Assembly: GCA_015523485.1 (NCBI GenBank)
Contig: WAKH01000077.1
Coordinates: 1 to 46,522 of the forward strand
Origin: Thermodiscus sp.
Lineage (GTDB): Archaea > Thermoproteota > Thermoprotei_A > Sulfolobales > Acidilobaceae
Reading direction: 5' to 3'
Length of the DNA: 46,522 nt
Part shown: in pieces, positions 6,039-16,777 of the stretch
Layout of the letters: each line of letters starts with the position of its first letter
Numbering within the stretch: the first letter of the stretch is position 1
The notes under the pieces: model-generated
Told to the model about the DNA's origin: nothing
Seen by the model: the letters and a program-made list of their open reading frames with translations, nothing else
Database searches by the model: none
Program-made: the position numbers and the translations under genes

Positions 6039-6701
6039 TCAGTCAAGTATTGCGCTGGATAAGACCAGGGCAAATCCTAGGAAAGAGGCTCCACCCAACC
6101 ATATTGACGTCAATGAGTCTATTGGAGGATGCGCTCCCGAAAAGGCTGTTATGAGGGGATCAATAGTTACCCTCAGATATGGTATCGAGAGGACGAGTAC
6201 GACGAACGCGACCGATCCAGTTCTAGCTTCTCCGAAACTTAGTGAGGCTGAGACGAATGCAGACACCGATGCTAAGAATAGACTCACTCCACCAGCCCAG
6301 AGTAACATGGGTGTCCAGGCAACGACCAATCCAATAGTAAATACTTTAACTATGATACTAAATAACATTAATTGACTGAACAAGAATATGTAAGAATACG
6401 TACTCTTAGCAAGGATCAAGATCCAACTCTCCACTGGCGACGACCTTAAACCATCTAGTGTACCACTCAGGGCTTCACGAATAAATCCGGCGAATGACTC
6501 AAACAGGGCTAAGAACAATGCAAAGGCGATCATTGTCCCAGCAAGAACCTCCCCCGGATACTGCGAATACGAGGCAGCCGCTGAGGCGAGAATACCAGCC
6601 GCTAAGGTAAACCCTATCTTGACATAGAAGTCTACTCTCTCCCTGACTTCAACTTTTAAATCTTTATAAATTAAGGCTAAAAGTAAACTTAGCGTTTTCA
6701 C
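6039..6701 (-). CDS. ccmB: CcmB-like heme/ABC exporter permease subunit
   Basis: Multi-TM protein, LIYKDLKVEVRERVDFYVKIGFTLAAGIL start typical of CcmB; overlaps the CcmA-like ATPase gene; adjacent to ccmC/ccmE. Confidence 0.8.
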   Translation of the reverse strand: MKTLSLLLALIYKDLKVEVRERVDFYVKIGFTLAAGILASAAASYSQYPGEVLAGTMIAFALFLALFESFAGFIREALSGTLDGLRSSPVESWILILAKSTYSYIFLFSQLMLFSIIVKVFTIGLVVAWTPMLLWAGGVSLFLASVSAFVSASLSFGEARTGSVAFVVLVLSIPYLRVTIDPLITAFSGAHPPIDSLTSIWLGGASFLGFALVLSSAILD

Positions 6702-7360
6702 CTCAAACGTCCCCCTTCTAGTTTCAAAACGCGGACATCCTTTAATGGGCCGATATCAGTCTCTTTAGGAGCAGTCGCTATAACTACACCTCCCCTACTT
6801 GTGTGCATATCGAGGACCGTTATCAAATCACTGACACCTGTATCGTCGAGGCCGGTAAATGGCTCGTCTAAAAGCAATACGCTCGGCTTGTGAATTAAGG
6901 CTCTCGCTATGTCAACCCTCCTCCTCCATCCAAAACTTAGTGAGGCCACTTTCTCGTTTATCTTGGCCTTGAGTTTCAGGATTTCAACTATCTCATCGTT
7001 CTCAGGAGAATAATCGTTGACTCCAAAGAGCTTCGCGTAAAACAATAGGTTTTCCTCCACAGTCAGTGGACTATACACTAAACTCGTATGGAGAACCACT
7101 CCCATCAGACTCTTCGCCTCAGGATAATATGGCTCGATACCAAGTATGCTGACTTTCCCTTTACTCGGCCGAATCAAGCCTGCTATTATCTTGATCAGCG
7201 TTGTTTTACCAGAACCGTTTGCACCAAGAATGAAAACCTTCTCCGACTCTGGTACAGATAAATCTATTCCCTTTAACACCCAGTCTCCATGTTCCTCGTA
7301 CTTTTTCCAGACATCAACTACTTCTACCATTGATTTATCCAAATATGGCACCATAGTCAT
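6698..7360 (-). CDS. ccmA: CcmA-like heme ABC transporter ATPase
   Basis: Walker A LGANGSGKTTLIKII, signature LSFGWRRRVDIARAL, Walker B VLLLDEPFTGLD; operon with CcmB. Confidence 0.85.
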   Translation of the reverse strand: MTMVPYLDKSMVEVVDVWKKYEEHGDWVLKGIDLSVPESEKVFILGANGSGKTTLIKIIAGLIRPSKGKVSILGIEPYYPEAKSLMGVVLHTSLVYSPLTVEENLLFYAKLFGVNDYSPENDEIVEILKLKAKINEKVASLSFGWRRRVDIARALIHKPSVLLLDEPFTGLDDTGVSDLITVLDMHTSRGGVVIATAPKETDIGPLKDVRVLKLEGGRLR

Positions 7361-7389: not shown

Positions 7390-8436
7390 ATGACTGTCAA
7401 TGTGTTAATACGAGGGTGTATAGCATTGACAAGTACACGAAAGCTTGAGTATATAGTTTCAGTTATCGCCCTTATGGACGTATTAACTGCGGTCATAGCA
7501 GTTCTCAAGGCCCCATTTCCTTTGAAGGTAGACCTAGGTGCCCCCACGGCATATATATCAATATACGTTCATGTCCCCCTTGCGTGGGCTTCATACCTAC
7601 TCTTCGCCATCGCCATGATAGGTGGTATACTATATCTCGTAAAGGGCAAGGATGTATATGAAAAGGTAACAGTTTATGCAACCCTACTCGGAATAATGTA
7701 TGGGTTCGGAACAATAGTAACTGGAATGGCCTGGGCCAAGGAATCCTGGGGTGCTGCATGGAACTGGGACCCTAGAGAAACGGGAGTACTACTCCTGTTA
7801 CTAGCCTATTTGGGTTACTTCGCGATTAGAAACAGTATCAGGGACCCCGAAAAAAGGAAGACAATCTCCTCTGCTTATGCAATAGCAGCATTCATGGCCG
7901 TACCTATAAGCTTCATCTCGGCATACATAGGTGATAGCCTGCATCCAACCTCAAGCCAGGCTGGCAGCTTCTTTGGGCAACCCCAAGTTATGATGTACTT
8001 TATTCCAAGAGTTCTCTTAGCCACAGCAACAGCTATCGGCTTAGTTACATTACTAGTGAAGGGAGATGGAAAAGGCAGCGCTCCTAGAATCGCAGGAGGC
8101 CTGATTCTAATTCTGGGAATATTGACAACAATATACCTAGTGTCTCCATACATAACCTCCCATCCTGAAAGAGTACTTAACGCTACGCTAGCTGGAGACA
8201 AAATATCTTCCATTGTAACGCCTAAAGGAGTCATAAAGTTCAACCCACCAATCGATTCACCTGTTCAACCCGCATCCTACAAGGGAGAGCCCACAATAAT
8301 TGGCCATCTCGTAACTTTGAACGGGAATAGTCTAAACCTTGTGATACACTGGAGTGCCTCATTCGCATTGGTGACCTACTCGATAATTCTTGGAGTCGTA
8401 TTGACCTTCGTATATAGGCTTAGTCGAAATATATAG
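7390..8436 (+). CDS. ccmC: CcmC/CcsA-family heme handling protein with WWD motif
   Basis: WWD motif GMAWAKESWGAAWNWDPRETGVLLLLLAYLGYFAIR; upstream His in YVHVPLAWASYLLF; downstream His in SLHPTSSQ; 6 or more TM helices. Confidence 0.88.
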   Translation: MTVNVLIRGCIALTSTRKLEYIVSVIALMDVLTAVIAVLKAPFPLKVDLGAPTAYISIYVHVPLAWASYLLFAIAMIGGILYLVKGKDVYEKVTVYATLLGIMYGFGTIVTGMAWAKESWGAAWNWDPRETGVLLLLLAYLGYFAIRNSIRDPEKRKTISSAYAIAAFMAVPISFISAYIGDSLHPTSSQAGSFFGQPQVMMYFIPRVLLATATAIGLVTLLVKGDGKGSAPRIAGGLILILGILTTIYLVSPYITSHPERVLNATLAGDKISSIVTPKGVIKFNPPIDSPVQPASYKGEPTIIGHLVTLNGNSLNLVIHWSASFALVTYSIILGVVLTFVYRLSRNI

Positions 8437-8514: not shown

Positions 8515-9051
8515 ATGGAGACGAAACAACTAGGTTCAGTTAAACGAAGGAGGAATGTAATAGCAGCAGGAGTTATCTTCATAGTAGTAATATTAACTAT
8601 TGGATATATGAGTATCAGCCAGTCAAGCTACAAGAGCATTTCCGATCTAGCAGATGTTAACAAGAGAGTAAAGGTTACTGTCGAGGGGACCGTGGAACCA
8701 GTTCTAAAGGGCACATACACATTGATCGTGAATGGAAAAGAATACTATGTTGAAGGACACGGAAGCTATGGAGTAGCAACAGATAGTTCTGGCAAAGTCT
8801 ATGCCGTCTTTATCCTGTCAGGAGATAATTTCGCGGTTCTCGCCCTCTATGACGTAGGCGAGAACACCAGTGCATATCAATTAGGCTCTGGTCTCGCAAG
8901 CAATGTTGTTGTCAGTGGTATATACGATCCAACGATTAAAGCGGTACTTTCAGGGCCCGGAGGGAGTGTTGAGCTACCCTACCTAGAAGTGAGTGCTATT
9001 CTCAAAGGATGCCATAGTAGTTATGAGCAGGGTGTTGGAACTAGAGGCTAA
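8515..9051 (+). CDS. ccmE: CcmE heme chaperone, CXXXY variant
   Basis: N-terminal TM anchor, OB-fold-like beta segments (VKVTVEGTVEPVLKGTYTLIVNGKEYYVEG), C-terminal AILKGCHSSYEQG = C-x3-Y at the place of the usual H-x3-Y heme ligand. Confidence 0.8.
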   Translation: METKQLGSVKRRRNVIAAGVIFIVVILTIGYMSISQSSYKSISDLADVNKRVKVTVEGTVEPVLKGTYTLIVNGKEYYVEGHGSYGVATDSSGKVYAVFILSGDNFAVLALYDVGENTSAYQLGSGLASNVVVSGIYDPTIKAVLSGPGGSVELPYLEVSAILKGCHSSYEQGVGTRG

Positions 9052-9187: not shown

Positions 9188-9928
9188 ATGCGGGCGGGCG
9201 TGTTAGGATTGCCGGGCTTCAGGGGCATAAAAGCTATAGTAGATTTCAACAATTGTACTCTACAGAATCTATTATCACACGCTGAGAGACTTAGAAAGGA
9301 GTCTAACCTAAGGATACACATCATTAGAGTCATAAGAGAAGATAACAGGTTACATGCATGGGTCCGTATCGCTGGAAGTAAGTCAGCAATGAGGAAACTT
9401 CTGCAGAAGATAGCCAAGACCCGCGAGTCCTACTATACAATAATTGGTGAAACATATGGAGGAACGATAGTTTACATAACAGTCCCCTCGAAAAGATGTG
9501 GAAGGTCTACAAGCTGTCCTTTAGCCAGTCCTTCTCCCAGGATTATACCCATATCAACTGTCATTCAAGACGGTAAAATGAAAGCCCTAGTAGTAGCATC
9601 CTCAAAGAAATCATTGGATGCCCTAGCTAAGAAAGGTTTCCAGCTAGAGGTAATCGTGGGTGATCACGAGTCTCAACAATCGCTCACCAATAGGCAAGAG
9701 GAGATATTGATGAAAGCTTTTATGATAGGTTACTATTCTTATCCACGAAACGCCGATTTAAAGGATCTAGCCAAGGCTACAGGATTATCGCTCTCAACGG
9801 TGGCTGAATTGATAAGGAAAGCTGAAATGAAACTGATTAAGAGATTCCTGCTGGAGGAGCTGCTGATCGCATATATACGTAGAGATAGTGATGGAAGTCG
9901 GGAGAGGATAGAGGATAATAGTTGCTGA
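9188..9928 (+). CDS. HTH_10 / bacterio-opsin-activator-type transcriptional regulator
   Basis: C-terminal LTNRQEEILMKAFMIGYYSYPRNADLKDLAKATGLSLSTVAELIRKAEMKLIKRFL is the Bat HTH signature. Confidence 0.85.
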   Translation: MRAGVLGLPGFRGIKAIVDFNNCTLQNLLSHAERLRKESNLRIHIIRVIREDNRLHAWVRIAGSKSAMRKLLQKIAKTRESYYTIIGETYGGTIVYITVPSKRCGRSTSCPLASPSPRIIPISTVIQDGKMKALVVASSKKSLDALAKKGFQLEVIVGDHESQQSLTNRQEEILMKAFMIGYYSYPRNADLKDLAKATGLSLSTVAELIRKAEMKLIKRFLLEELLIAYIRRDSDGSRERIEDNSC

Positions 9929-9965
9929 GAGATTTCCAATTAACATTATTAAAAATAATTATATT

Positions 9966-11423
9966 CTAGTCTATTATAATTATGTTGAGTGAATATAGGA
10001 GAAGGATTAATCCCATTATACTCAATAATCCATAACTGTATTGTTGAGCTTTTTTACCTGCCATTTTGTTTAGGGTGGCCATCACTTTTTCATTACCTGT
10101 AGCCCATACTGCCAAGGCTATGGGAACCGAGATTCCTAGTGTAAATGAGGCTAGAGTAAGTAGACCTACTGTTAATTCGCTTCCAGCTATTAGTATCAGC
10201 GCACCTACGACGAGCGGAAAACTGCACTGAACCGCTAAAAGACCGTATAAGAAGCTGAATCCAACTATTCCTCTTTTGGTTAAGACTCCGATGTTAATGA
10301 ACGTAGGAACGCCTAGGACCCCTAGAATGCCAGCTGACAATAGTATCAAGGCAGCTGTTGGTAATAATATCCTGTTGACGGATGTCGTAATAGAACCTAG
10401 GACTAGGAAAAGTCCACCTATCATGAGTGCTCCTGCGGCTGTTGCTATCCCAGCTTTTACTGATGTTCCGGCTCCCAGGTTAGGCGTGCCCTCGCGGGAC
10501 ACCAGCATCGAGAGATACGCTAGGAGAACTGGAAATACGCACGGTGAGAACGCGGCAATCAAACCCGCTATTAGCGCGGTTGATACAGATGCTATTGCTC
10601 CGAGATTATAGCTTGATTCTTGCAATTCTACCTTTTCACCTGTTAACCCCGTTTGTATCGTTGCTGTTATTCCATCGAGCATAGATGCCATTTGTTCCGC
10701 CTCTGTAACTGATAGGTTTGGCACCATGCTTAGAATGATATTAACTAATGCACTCTTCCCACCAACATACTGTGATGGGGGAACGCCCTCTTCCAGACTC
10801 CTTCTGAGCAGGTTAGCTATTGTGTCATTACTTGAGTACACCCATTCCCTCAGATCTTCATTATTTAGCGATCTTGGTAACGTATGGCACTCCGTACAAG
10901 TTTCCTGCATTCTAACGAATACGTTCTCACTCAAACCCGATGAGGAAGTTGCCCACTCATACATTACATTAGTTATGTTGTTCCCCGTGAACGAACCTAC
11001 ATGACGGGCCACAGGTTTTCCATTTAGATACACAATGAATGTAGGCGTCTCCTCCACGCCATTATTTACGTAAATATCTATTGTTTCTTTACTAAGTTTC
11101 ACAACGTAGAATCTTATGGGGAGATCCGGGTTCCTCGCTAACTTACTCCAATACGGTTCCATTTGCTGGCATACTGGACACGTGTCGCTAGAGAACATAA
11201 TAGCTACTGGCTTGCTATTAGATAGCGCCTTGTCGAATTCTCCTTGACTTGTTATTATATAATCAACGTTACGACTTTCAACAAGCGAGAATGGATTGGC
11301 TTGTACTATGTAGAATAAGATTAGGCCTCCTATGATTACTGATACAAGGATTAGTATACCGGACTCCAAGCGCTCCCTGCTCCACGTATCCATTCTTAGT
11401 TTCCTAGGCAATACGCTCCCCAT
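9966..11423 (-). CDS. Thioredoxin - CXXCH segment - CcdA/DsbD membrane domain fusion
   Basis: TM anchor, thioredoxin-like domain with DTCPVCQQMEPYW and VEETPTFIVYLNGK, then QETCTECHTLPRSL (heme c motif), then CcdA-like TM domain with FSPCVFPVLLAYLSML and VQCSFPLVVGAL. Confidence 0.85.
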   Translation of the reverse strand: MGSVLPRKLRMDTWSRERLESGILILVSVIIGGLILFYIVQANPFSLVESRNVDYIITSQGEFDKALSNSKPVAIMFSSDTCPVCQQMEPYWSKLARNPDLPIRFYVVKLSKETIDIYVNNGVEETPTFIVYLNGKPVARHVGSFTGNNITNVMYEWATSSSGLSENVFVRMQETCTECHTLPRSLNNEDLREWVYSSNDTIANLLRRSLEEGVPPSQYVGGKSALVNIILSMVPNLSVTEAEQMASMLDGITATIQTGLTGEKVELQESSYNLGAIASVSTALIAGLIAAFSPCVFPVLLAYLSMLVSREGTPNLGAGTSVKAGIATAAGALMIGGLFLVLGSITTSVNRILLPTAALILLSAGILGVLGVPTFINIGVLTKRGIVGFSFLYGLLAVQCSFPLVVGALILIAGSELTVGLLTLASFTLGISVPIALAVWATGNEKVMATLNKMAGKKAQQYSYGLLSIMGLILLLYSLNIIIID

Positions 11424-11508: not shown

Positions 11509-12957
11509 TTACTTGCGAATAGACCTGTAGAGCCCGTATATTTTACATTTGGGGCAAAGCCAGATTTGCTCTTGCACCCACTTAGGTGCGCCTCTCCTCT
11601 TCAGGATTTCTTCAACGTGCCTTATCATCTTAAGACTCCCAATCGGTCTTCCACATAGTTTACATTTAGCAATTTTATCACTCGTTAGTGTTACCTTCTT
11701 ATCCAGTATATCATTATTATAGACATATTTTAGGTTGATTGCTTCGTGACTACAAGCCCATACGCATTCCCAACAGGCATCACAATATGCATGGTTAAAC
11801 CTCAATGAGATACTGTTTTCGGTGACTTCTAGTGCAAGGGCACCAGTAGGACACATGCTCGAGCAGGCATCGCACAGTAGACAACTATCCTGGTCTACAT
11901 TAACATAGCCAATTACGGGCGCATCAAATGCCAGGTTCTTTACTCCATACAATTCGGTTAGCATCCTCACCTGCGAAATCTTTCTAGATGGCAGCATCTT
12001 ACTACTCTTTGTTATTCCTTCACTATTGTTGAATAAAATTAATAAATCAACCAACTCATCAACATTTTCGGCTATGCCAACTGGTAGTCCAGAATAGTTT
12101 CTTAATTTATCTTTATTCCAAATCTTACTGTTATCATTATAAATCGCTATGCTAAAACCAGCTGCGAGTGACGCCACCAAATGAAAATCTGTGAAATGAT
12201 CTATTCGATCCAAGGTTACTAGTACAGCCGGATTGATTTTTTCCTTGTTTTCAAATAGTCCTCCAATTATAGATGATGCTTTCTTTTTGGATACAATAAT
12301 GAGGGTTAAGCTCCGCTTGGCCCTCATTCTTAGGTTATCAATAAAGTAGGTGTAAGAGGAGTTCTCGAATGCTGGCATATTGAGGAGTTGATGTGGACAA
12401 CTCCATAGGCAAATACCGCATGAGTCGCAGAGAACGGGATTAACTTTGGGTGGTTTGCCTCGTAGTGCTTCTTTTGGACACGATTCAATACAGAGGTTAC
12501 AGTTTGGGTGGGCTACGCATCTATCCTCCATTGTAATGTACGGTGCGGAATAGTATTTTGTTATACTTTTAATAGGATTAGTGATTAGGTCTCTCCTACT
12601 AACACGTTTCGATAAAGTGTATGATTTTGGTACTCTGTCAAGTTTAGTCATCATTATCATCAATAGTTTTGATAATAACAAGTCTGCGGCCGTTAATGCT
12701 GGTTCTGCTAATTCAAATTCTATGGGATCAACCGGGAAATATGCATATGGATTGACACCTTGTAGTTCGATTCTTTGGATTAGGTCGGTATAAGTTGACC
12801 ATGCTCCGCTATATAATCCCAATACTTTCATATTTTTAATAATATAATATAATATTTTTTCCTCTATTTTCTCGATTGGATAGAATTCAACTTGTACTGG
12901 CAAACTTCTAGTGTCAAGCCCGACATCTTCCTGGGCTATAATAATCATCCCTTCCAC
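11509..12957 (-). CDS. Cytoplasmic polyferredoxin-type protein with four [4Fe-4S] motifs and C-terminal CxxC/CxxC zinc-ribbon-like tail
   Basis: CNLCIESCP, CDSCGICLWSCP, CLLCDACSSMCP, CDACWECVWACS, then CKLCGRP...WLCPKCK; no signal peptide. Confidence 0.8.
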   Translation of the reverse strand: MEGMIIIAQEDVGLDTRSLPVQVEFYPIEKIEEKILYYIIKNMKVLGLYSGAWSTYTDLIQRIELQGVNPYAYFPVDPIEFELAEPALTAADLLLSKLLMIMMTKLDRVPKSYTLSKRVSRRDLITNPIKSITKYYSAPYITMEDRCVAHPNCNLCIESCPKEALRGKPPKVNPVLCDSCGICLWSCPHQLLNMPAFENSSYTYFIDNLRMRAKRSLTLIIVSKKKASSIIGGLFENKEKINPAVLVTLDRIDHFTDFHLVASLAAGFSIAIYNDNSKIWNKDKLRNYSGLPVGIAENVDELVDLLILFNNSEGITKSSKMLPSRKISQVRMLTELYGVKNLAFDAPVIGYVNVDQDSCLLCDACSSMCPTGALALEVTENSISLRFNHAYCDACWECVWACSHEAINLKYVYNNDILDKKVTLTSDKIAKCKLCGRPIGSLKMIRHVEEILKRRGAPKWVQEQIWLCPKCKIYGLYRSIRK

Positions 12958-16162: not shown

Positions 16163-16777
16163 ATGGGTAAAATTCACTGGATAATTATAATAATGATAGT
16201 ATTGGGGGCATATGCATTTACGATAGCCCACTCGCAGCCATCAGAAGAGCAGGCTAGACAAGCATTCGAACAAAGCGGTTGCTACGGCTGCCACACAACC
16301 CACGAGTGGACTGACTTAACGGCAACTATAACGGATTGGGCTCACATGTATGACAGCTTGGATGAGGCTGCACAAAGCGTTGGATACTCGAGTTTCGATG
16401 ACCTCATGACAACAATGAAGGACTGGGCTGGTTTATATGGCGGCATTAGCGACCAACAATATCAAACTATATACGAATATTTCGTATATCTATTCAACTC
16501 TTCGAAACCAGCGCAACCAACTACCACTACAACAACCACAACACAGGCCACTGGCCAGGAAACCGTGACTGAGACTCTTACTATAACTAAGGAGAAGACG
16601 GTTACAGAGACGCAGAGCGTATATGTAGTTCTCAACGAGTCCAAAGTAGTAGAACGAACAGTCACGGAAAGTGTTCCGCCGGCAAAGCCGCCCAGTGCAT
16701 TCAACTACGCCGCTATTGTAGCAGCGATATTGGCACTGGCTGGTCTAGGCTACTTAATCTACATAATTAAAAAATAA
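16163..16777 (+). CDS. Monoheme cytochrome c, Thr-rich linker and C-terminal TM anchor
   Basis: Signal peptide, SGCYGCHTTHEW, PTTTTTTTTQATGQETVTET linker, AIVAAILALAGLGYLIYIIKK tail. Confidence 0.85.
   Translation: MGKIHWIIIIMIVLGAYAFTIAHSQPSEEQARQAFEQSGCYGCHTTHEWTDLTATITDWAHMYDSLDEAAQSVGYSSFDDLMTTMKDWAGLYGGISDQQYQTIYEYFVYLFNSSKPAQPTTTTTTTTQATGQETVTETLTITKEKTVTETQSVYVVLNESKVVERTVTESVPPAKPPSAFNYAAIVAAILALAGLGYLIYIIKK

Follow-up and report, generated by a model that had tools for sequence, protein, structure and literature searches.

A cytochrome c-like domain between the thioredoxin and CcdA parts of a predicted cytochrome maturation reductase in Thermodiscus and related archaea

In cytochrome c maturation by System I (Ccm), the membrane protein CcdA or DsbD feeds CcmG, and CcmG together with CcmH keeps the cysteines of the apocytochrome reduced. 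A stretch of 46,522 nucleotides from Thermodiscus sp. (the window) encodes a protein that resembles several described systems and matches none of them in full. As in CcdA/DsbD proteins with a fused thioredoxin, a thioredoxin CXXC motif and a CcdA domain with one cysteine on each of two transmembrane helices are combined in one chain and in a maturation context; here, however, a third, cytochrome c-like domain lies in between, giving the order transmembrane anchor, thioredoxin, cytochrome, CcdA. E. coli CcmG shares the membrane anchor, the predicted outward-facing thioredoxin, the CPxC motif and the location in a ccm cluster, whereas here the thioredoxin shares one chain with CcdA, its electron source, and with the cytochrome domain. 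PDB entry 2l4d likewise joins an assembly factor of the thioredoxin fold to a cytochrome c domain; this entry is among the matches of the middle-domain profile, and we take it to be the Sco-cytochrome c fusion of Pseudomonas putida. Thiol–heme electron transfer has been reported for the Sco-cytochrome c fusion, but it is a bacterial copper-site factor without CcdA. In Shewanella oneidensis the cytochrome c NapB acts on CcmG during maturation, as is proposed here for the fused domain, but NapB is a separate, unfused nitrate reductase subunit with two hemes (PMC8782879). Archaea mostly lack CcmH (PMC9084895; main text of PMC4429474), and the protein described here may bear on how they manage without it. 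By its sequence it would be of a known kind, a CcdA/CcmG-type reductase, with the added cytochrome c-like domain as what is new. No description of a thioredoxin–cytochrome c–CcdA protein was found in the main texts, as distinct from the supplements, of a literature made up mostly of non-subscription papers.

The ORF reading of the window gives a minus-strand gene of 485 codons with an ATG start, and the opposite (plus) frame over the same interval is riddled with stops. The features of the encoded protein are as follows.

9966..11423, minus strand: whole gene, fusion of a transmembrane anchor, thioredoxin, cytochrome c-like domain and CcdA (485 residues)
11298..11378, minus strand: N-terminal membrane anchor, residues 16–42, preceded by a positively charged N-terminus
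10944..11255, minus strand: thioredoxin/CcmG-like domain, residues 57–160, from Pfam Thioredoxin, the E. coli CcmG profile and Foldseek matches to thioredoxins
11169..11180, minus strand: CPVC active site, residues 82–85, with C82 and C85; C82, P83 and C85 present in 22 of 22 homologues
10644..10937, minus strand: cytochrome c-like domain, residues ~163–260, from profiles and AlphaFold2
10884..10898, minus strand: CTECH heme c attachment motif, residues 176–180, with C176, C179 and H180; 22 of 22
10725..10727, minus strand: M233, candidate distal axial ligand; 22 of 22, aligned with the Met of stand-alone monoheme cytochromes
9972..10601, minus strand: CcdA/DsbD-type membrane domain, residues 275–484, six transmembrane helices, SPC295 and QC400

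The chain thus carries, as the preliminary description of the locus had reported, a thioredoxin-like CPVC site and a CcdA/DsbD membrane domain with both of its motifs, SPCVFP (residues 293–298) and VQCSFP (QCSFP at residues 399–403), within a single ORF. The same description had placed CTECH at 10885–10899; the motif stands and its position is shifted by one nucleotide. The ~90-residue segment that it noted after CTECH is indeed helical, and is not a separate spacer: together with the CXXCH it forms one helical domain of ~98 residues. The six cysteines of the protein make up exactly three pairs (CPVC, CTECH and the membrane pair), and H180 of CTECH is one of only two histidines. From charges and hydrophobicity, the N-terminus is predicted to lie inside, and the thioredoxin and cytochrome domains outside; this is the face where Ccm attaches heme, which fits a Ccm thiol reductase.

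Thioredoxin is the sole Pfam family seen in the window protein (residues 57–154, E = 2.3e-12). The domain also matches E. coli CcmG in profile comparison (probability 96), and its Foldseek matches are thioredoxins. A membrane-anchored, predicted outward-facing thioredoxin with CXXC inside a cytochrome maturation locus is what a CcmG/ResA-like protein would comprise. The CcdA part of the window protein falls below the Pfam threshold, and DsbD_TM is weakly matched in 9 of the 22 homologues. Hydrophobic segments and AlphaFold2 helices agree on six transmembrane helices of CcdA/DsbD type. C295 and C400, which lie near prolines on TM1 and TM4, are present in all 21 complete sequences.

The middle domain was compared with cytochromes in several ways. 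Searched one by one against Pfam, 20 of the 22 isolated domains matched Cytochrome_CBB3 (best E = 2.8e-5, weak and under the curated cut-off), 15 matched Cytochrom_C, 6 matched Cytochrom_C1 and 4 matched Cytochrom_C550, all likewise under curated cut-offs, and every other family was matched by one domain at most. The domain profile matched the cbb3 oxidase subunit CcoP in the PDB (E = 0.001), followed by numerous cytochromes c. The profile–profile comparison with stand-alone monoheme cytochromes of the order gave a probability of 96.2 and E = 2.5e-9 over 90 columns, with CXXCH aligned on CXXCH and Met on Met. Comparison with a small set of classical class I cytochromes gave a probability of 94.8 over 77 columns; as some sequences of this set were entered by hand, it is weaker evidence than the stand-alone monoheme match. 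AlphaFold2 modeled the lone domain with pLDDT 96 and pTM 0.88. In the model, an N-terminal helix running into CXXCH is followed by three short helices, a further helix that ends at M233 and a C-terminal helix, an order that is the one expected of a small cytochrome c. A Foldseek search of this model against the PDB gave no confident match (best E = 0.5; cytochrome c6 at E = 2.5, TM 0.3), and a search against viral models returned nothing useful.

These comparisons suggest that the middle domain is related to cytochrome c and not to CcmH. We hold it to be quite probable that the domain carries heme c, and the heme would probably be a single one ligated by His180 and Met233. The preliminary description had proposed a reductase of cytochrome maturation with a possible heme c of its own, and this is the reading favored here. 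It draws on the ccm cluster, the adjacency of ccmF in relatives and the CcmG-related thioredoxin for the reductase, and on the conserved CXXCH, the invariant candidate Met and the profile likeness to cytochromes c for the heme. Taken as a whole, an apocytochrome disulfide reductase dedicated to Ccm (CcmG plus CcdA) and bearing a heme c domain appears fairly likely.

The middle CXXC could instead be a third relay dithiol that replaces CcmH, passing electrons from CcdA to the thioredoxin, then to the pair and on to the apocytochrome, with no heme involved. Archaeal Ccm systems without CcmH (PMC9084895; main text of PMC4429474) leave room for such a relay, the arrangement of all cysteines of the window protein in three pairs is in keeping with it, and the Pyrodictium genome paper predicts the gene to be a functional CcmH homologue (PMC5556600). 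However, a relay needs neither the His after the second Cys nor the distal Met, and both are invariant in 22 of 22 homologues. Profile comparison of the middle domain with E. coli CcmH gave a probability of 0.3, and Pfam CcmH, the LRCxxC domain family, had zero matches in the 22 members, in which the cytochrome families recur; on these two results an identity of the domain with CcmH was ruled out. A heme-free relay is therefore considered unlikely.

The three-part protein, with the predicted heme c domain in its middle, was found in 22 genomes from four families of the archaeal order of Thermodiscus, and full-length homologues among the relatives are 31–53% identical. Named carriers include Pyrodictium, other Pyrodictiaceae, Acidilobaceae and Desulfurococcales MAGs. 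The middle-domain profile finds the domain in 25 of 214 genomes of the order; 22 of these matches were aligned, the others being a stand-alone cytochrome (L055), a contig-end fragment and a frame-broken copy. Neither the full-length nor the domain profile found the middle domain outside the order in 398 sampled genomes of the phylum, no fusion was present on the plasmids searched, and the single window protein used as a query against genome contigs gave no match. An assembly artefact or chimera was ruled out by the occurrence of the same architecture in 22 genomes, single-contig ones included.

Within the middle domain, the Cys pair and the His of CXXCH, together with W194, M233 and L249, are invariant in 22 of 22 homologues, and the XX positions of the motif vary. 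The preliminary description would have been undermined by an absence of homologues keeping CXXCH; no such refutation was found. A chance CXXCH was ruled out by this conservation and by its occurrence in only 4 of 20,000 shuffles of the window protein. The isolated window domain is 18–33% identical to the domains of the other homologues, and the invariance of CXXCH and Met233 despite this low identity is thus selective. In the close pair L040/L056, dN/dS is 0.09 for the thioredoxin, 0.14 for the middle domain, 0.16 for CcdA and 0.34 for the linker that follows the domain, so that by these sequence comparisons the middle domain is under purifying selection.

The window fusion sits within a ccm cluster, whose other genes are as follows.

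6039..6701, minus strand: CcmB-like membrane protein, beside CcmA, conserved in the ccm loci of relatives, without a library match
6698..7360, minus strand: CcmA-like ABC ATPase, by library match
7390..8436, plus strand: CcmC (Cytochrom_C_asm), by library match
8515..9051, plus strand: CcmE-like heme chaperone, matching CcmE of the ccm loci of relatives, without a library match
9188..9928, plus strand: HTH_10 regulator, between ccmE and the fusion

The CcmE-like protein has the archaeal CxxxY motif (GCHSSYE) in place of the His motif. Homologues of the HTH_10 regulator adjoin ccm genes in many relatives. Directly 3' of the fusion and on the same strand lies ccmF in 17 of 21 complete fusions, the other four being the window fusion and those of three genomes from a single family, to which the presumed Ignicoccus belongs. 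L057, the closest relative, has these genes in an identical order, with ccmF (L057 7463–10441) between the fusion and the regulator; it is absent from the corresponding interval of the window, 9928–9966, and the ccmF of the window genome is on another contig, C49 (L117). In Pyrodictium delaneyi, Pdsh_09020 lies between ccmF (09015) and ccmB (09025) and was assigned to the CcdA superfamily (PMC5556600). From the match of this gene order to L061, a MAG named P. delaneyi, we infer that Pdsh_09020 is the fusion; it is missing from the five heme proteins given in that paper (PMC5556600). In its main text, the archaeal cytochrome survey regards CXXCH-containing thioredoxin proteins as common false positives, and the Ignicoccus cytochromes given in that main text are others only (PMC4429474). 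If the heme assignment is true, the fusion would be an unlisted c-type cytochrome for both Ignicoccus and Pyrodictium.

The CcmF partners of the long fusions, and of the short forms described below, retain all four His that correspond to positions 173, 261, 303 and 491 of E. coli CcmF, which we take to be heme ligands. A role of the fused domain as a substitute heme reductant for a heme-less CcmF is unsupported, as all four ligands are kept, and there is no sign in these sequences that the domain is a simple replacement for the heme of CcmF itself. CcmF in these loci (L057 7463–10441, L117 and others) is ~990–1090 residues long, compared with 647 in E. coli; the long C-terminal extension matches no Pfam family and contains few cysteines or none.

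The fusion would constitute the thiol-reducing arm of archaeal System I on a single chain. CcdA would move reducing equivalents across the membrane through C295/C400 to C82/C85 of the fused CcmG-like thioredoxin, which in turn would keep the cysteines of the apocytochrome CXXCH reduced for CcmF; this direction of electron flow follows from the known CcdA/CcmG pathway. The middle domain would be a monoheme cytochrome c matured by the same Ccm machine, as its CXXCH, its Met and its profile similarity suggest. A reductase bearing its own cytochrome c would then be at once a component of the assembly machinery and one of its products, provided that heme is bound. The heme would exchange single electrons with the neighboring thioredoxin dithiol, and, if so, would link thiol and heme redox chemistry directly and physically. 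His/Met-ligated hemes usually have high potentials, and transfer from dithiol to heme would thus be likelier than the NapB direction, from heme to dithiol. Tentatively, the domain may serve as an electron outlet or a redox gauge towards the heme-ligation site of CcmF, and not as a donor. Attachment of heme requires both reduced CXXCH thiols and reduced heme iron, and the b-heme of CcmF has been proposed as the reductant (PMC10746174). A further, somewhat doubtful possibility is that the heme c domain couples the two sides, with the thioredoxin reducing the apocytochrome cysteines and heme c passing electrons to, or sensing, the CcmF heme; if this were true, the Ccm machine would depend on its own product and regulate itself. 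When Methanosarcina acetivorans was grown under reducing conditions, deletions of ccmG and ccdA left holo-cytochrome undiminished (PMC9084895), a result that warns against overrating the reductase.

A sensing role might also be the primary one. The domain would then act as a built-in apocytochrome, a client of its own machine that reports heme supply and thiol reduction and gates the reductase, with any redox role secondary. It is a CXXCH apocytochrome, is predicted to lie on the working face of CcmF and is encoded beside CcmF, and the sequence around its few invariant residues tends to change more quickly than the thioredoxin, as might that of a client. The gating, however, is hypothetical, several lineages live without the domain, and the invariant Met suggests selection on a holo-cytochrome and not just on a CXXCH target, which leaves this explanation rather improbable.

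Electrons might alternatively enter through the heme, which would take them from the quinol pool or from respiratory multiheme cytochromes and pass them to the thioredoxin disulfide, bypassing CcdA. Under anaerobic conditions, Shewanella NapB reduces CcmG independently of DsbD (PMC8782879), and the window locus adjoins multiheme cytochrome and NrfD genes. The invariant Met, on the other hand, points to His/Met ligation and a potential usually far above that of a thioredoxin disulfide, whereas NapB is reported to have a low potential, and CcdA keeps both cysteines in every complete fusion, leaving the cytoplasmic route intact. We consider this input route quite improbable.

The reductase with a predicted heme c domain has shorter relatives. 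Short thioredoxin–CcdA fusions of ~350–450 residues occur in Aeropyrum, in a Pyrolobus-type genome (G051) and in others; they have the same thioredoxin and CcdA parts and mostly the same place before ccmF as the long form, and differ in having no cytochrome domain. The short form of G051 does not adjoin ccmF. G167 and G168, both single contigs, each encode a long and a short copy, and every copy has its own ccmF; these paired reductase–ccmF sets (L040/L108 and L039/L107) form a natural comparison of long and short forms. As short forms serve other ccm loci, the domain is dispensable for basic reductase function. A tree built from the thioredoxin and CcdA parts shows about six changes of state for the long form, and a single clade of long fusions was rejected (p-AU = 1e-5); losses, repeated gains or recombination must therefore have occurred. 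An old gain followed by repeated loss is the simplest reading, and recombination is possible. Counts of the domain against absence of heme-copper oxidase lean to an association, with just one independent pair on supported branches. That the domain is a degenerate or structural spacer with a functionless CXXCH is highly improbable, since CXXCH and Met are invariant over low identity and its dN/dS is well under that of the neighboring linker, even though its presence varies on the host-protein tree and an Aeropyrum relative has it in shrunken form. In this relative (L075 5944–7281), the shrunken linker keeps CGDCH without the Met, and looks, from its sequence, like a decaying cytochrome domain.

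In G041 the fusion is split, just where the cytochrome domain begins, into two overlapping frames, thioredoxin and cytochrome–CcdA (L009 446–2001); the break may be a sequencing error, a frameshift or a natural split. On the plus strand of the window, 16163–16777 encodes an anchored stand-alone monoheme CXXCH protein without a Pfam match, located between the NrfD and multiheme cytochrome genes. The family to which it belongs occurs widely within the order and is profile-related to the fused domain; the CXXCH and distal Met of the two align, and the family members differ in being separate, unfused anchored proteins. Adjoining the fusion, on the minus strand at 11509–12957, is a polyferredoxin-like protein with two ferredoxin regions. 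Its homologue is adjacent in L002 and L057 and nearby in L058 and L070, and it may supply electrons from the cytoplasm or belong to the neighboring respiratory cluster.
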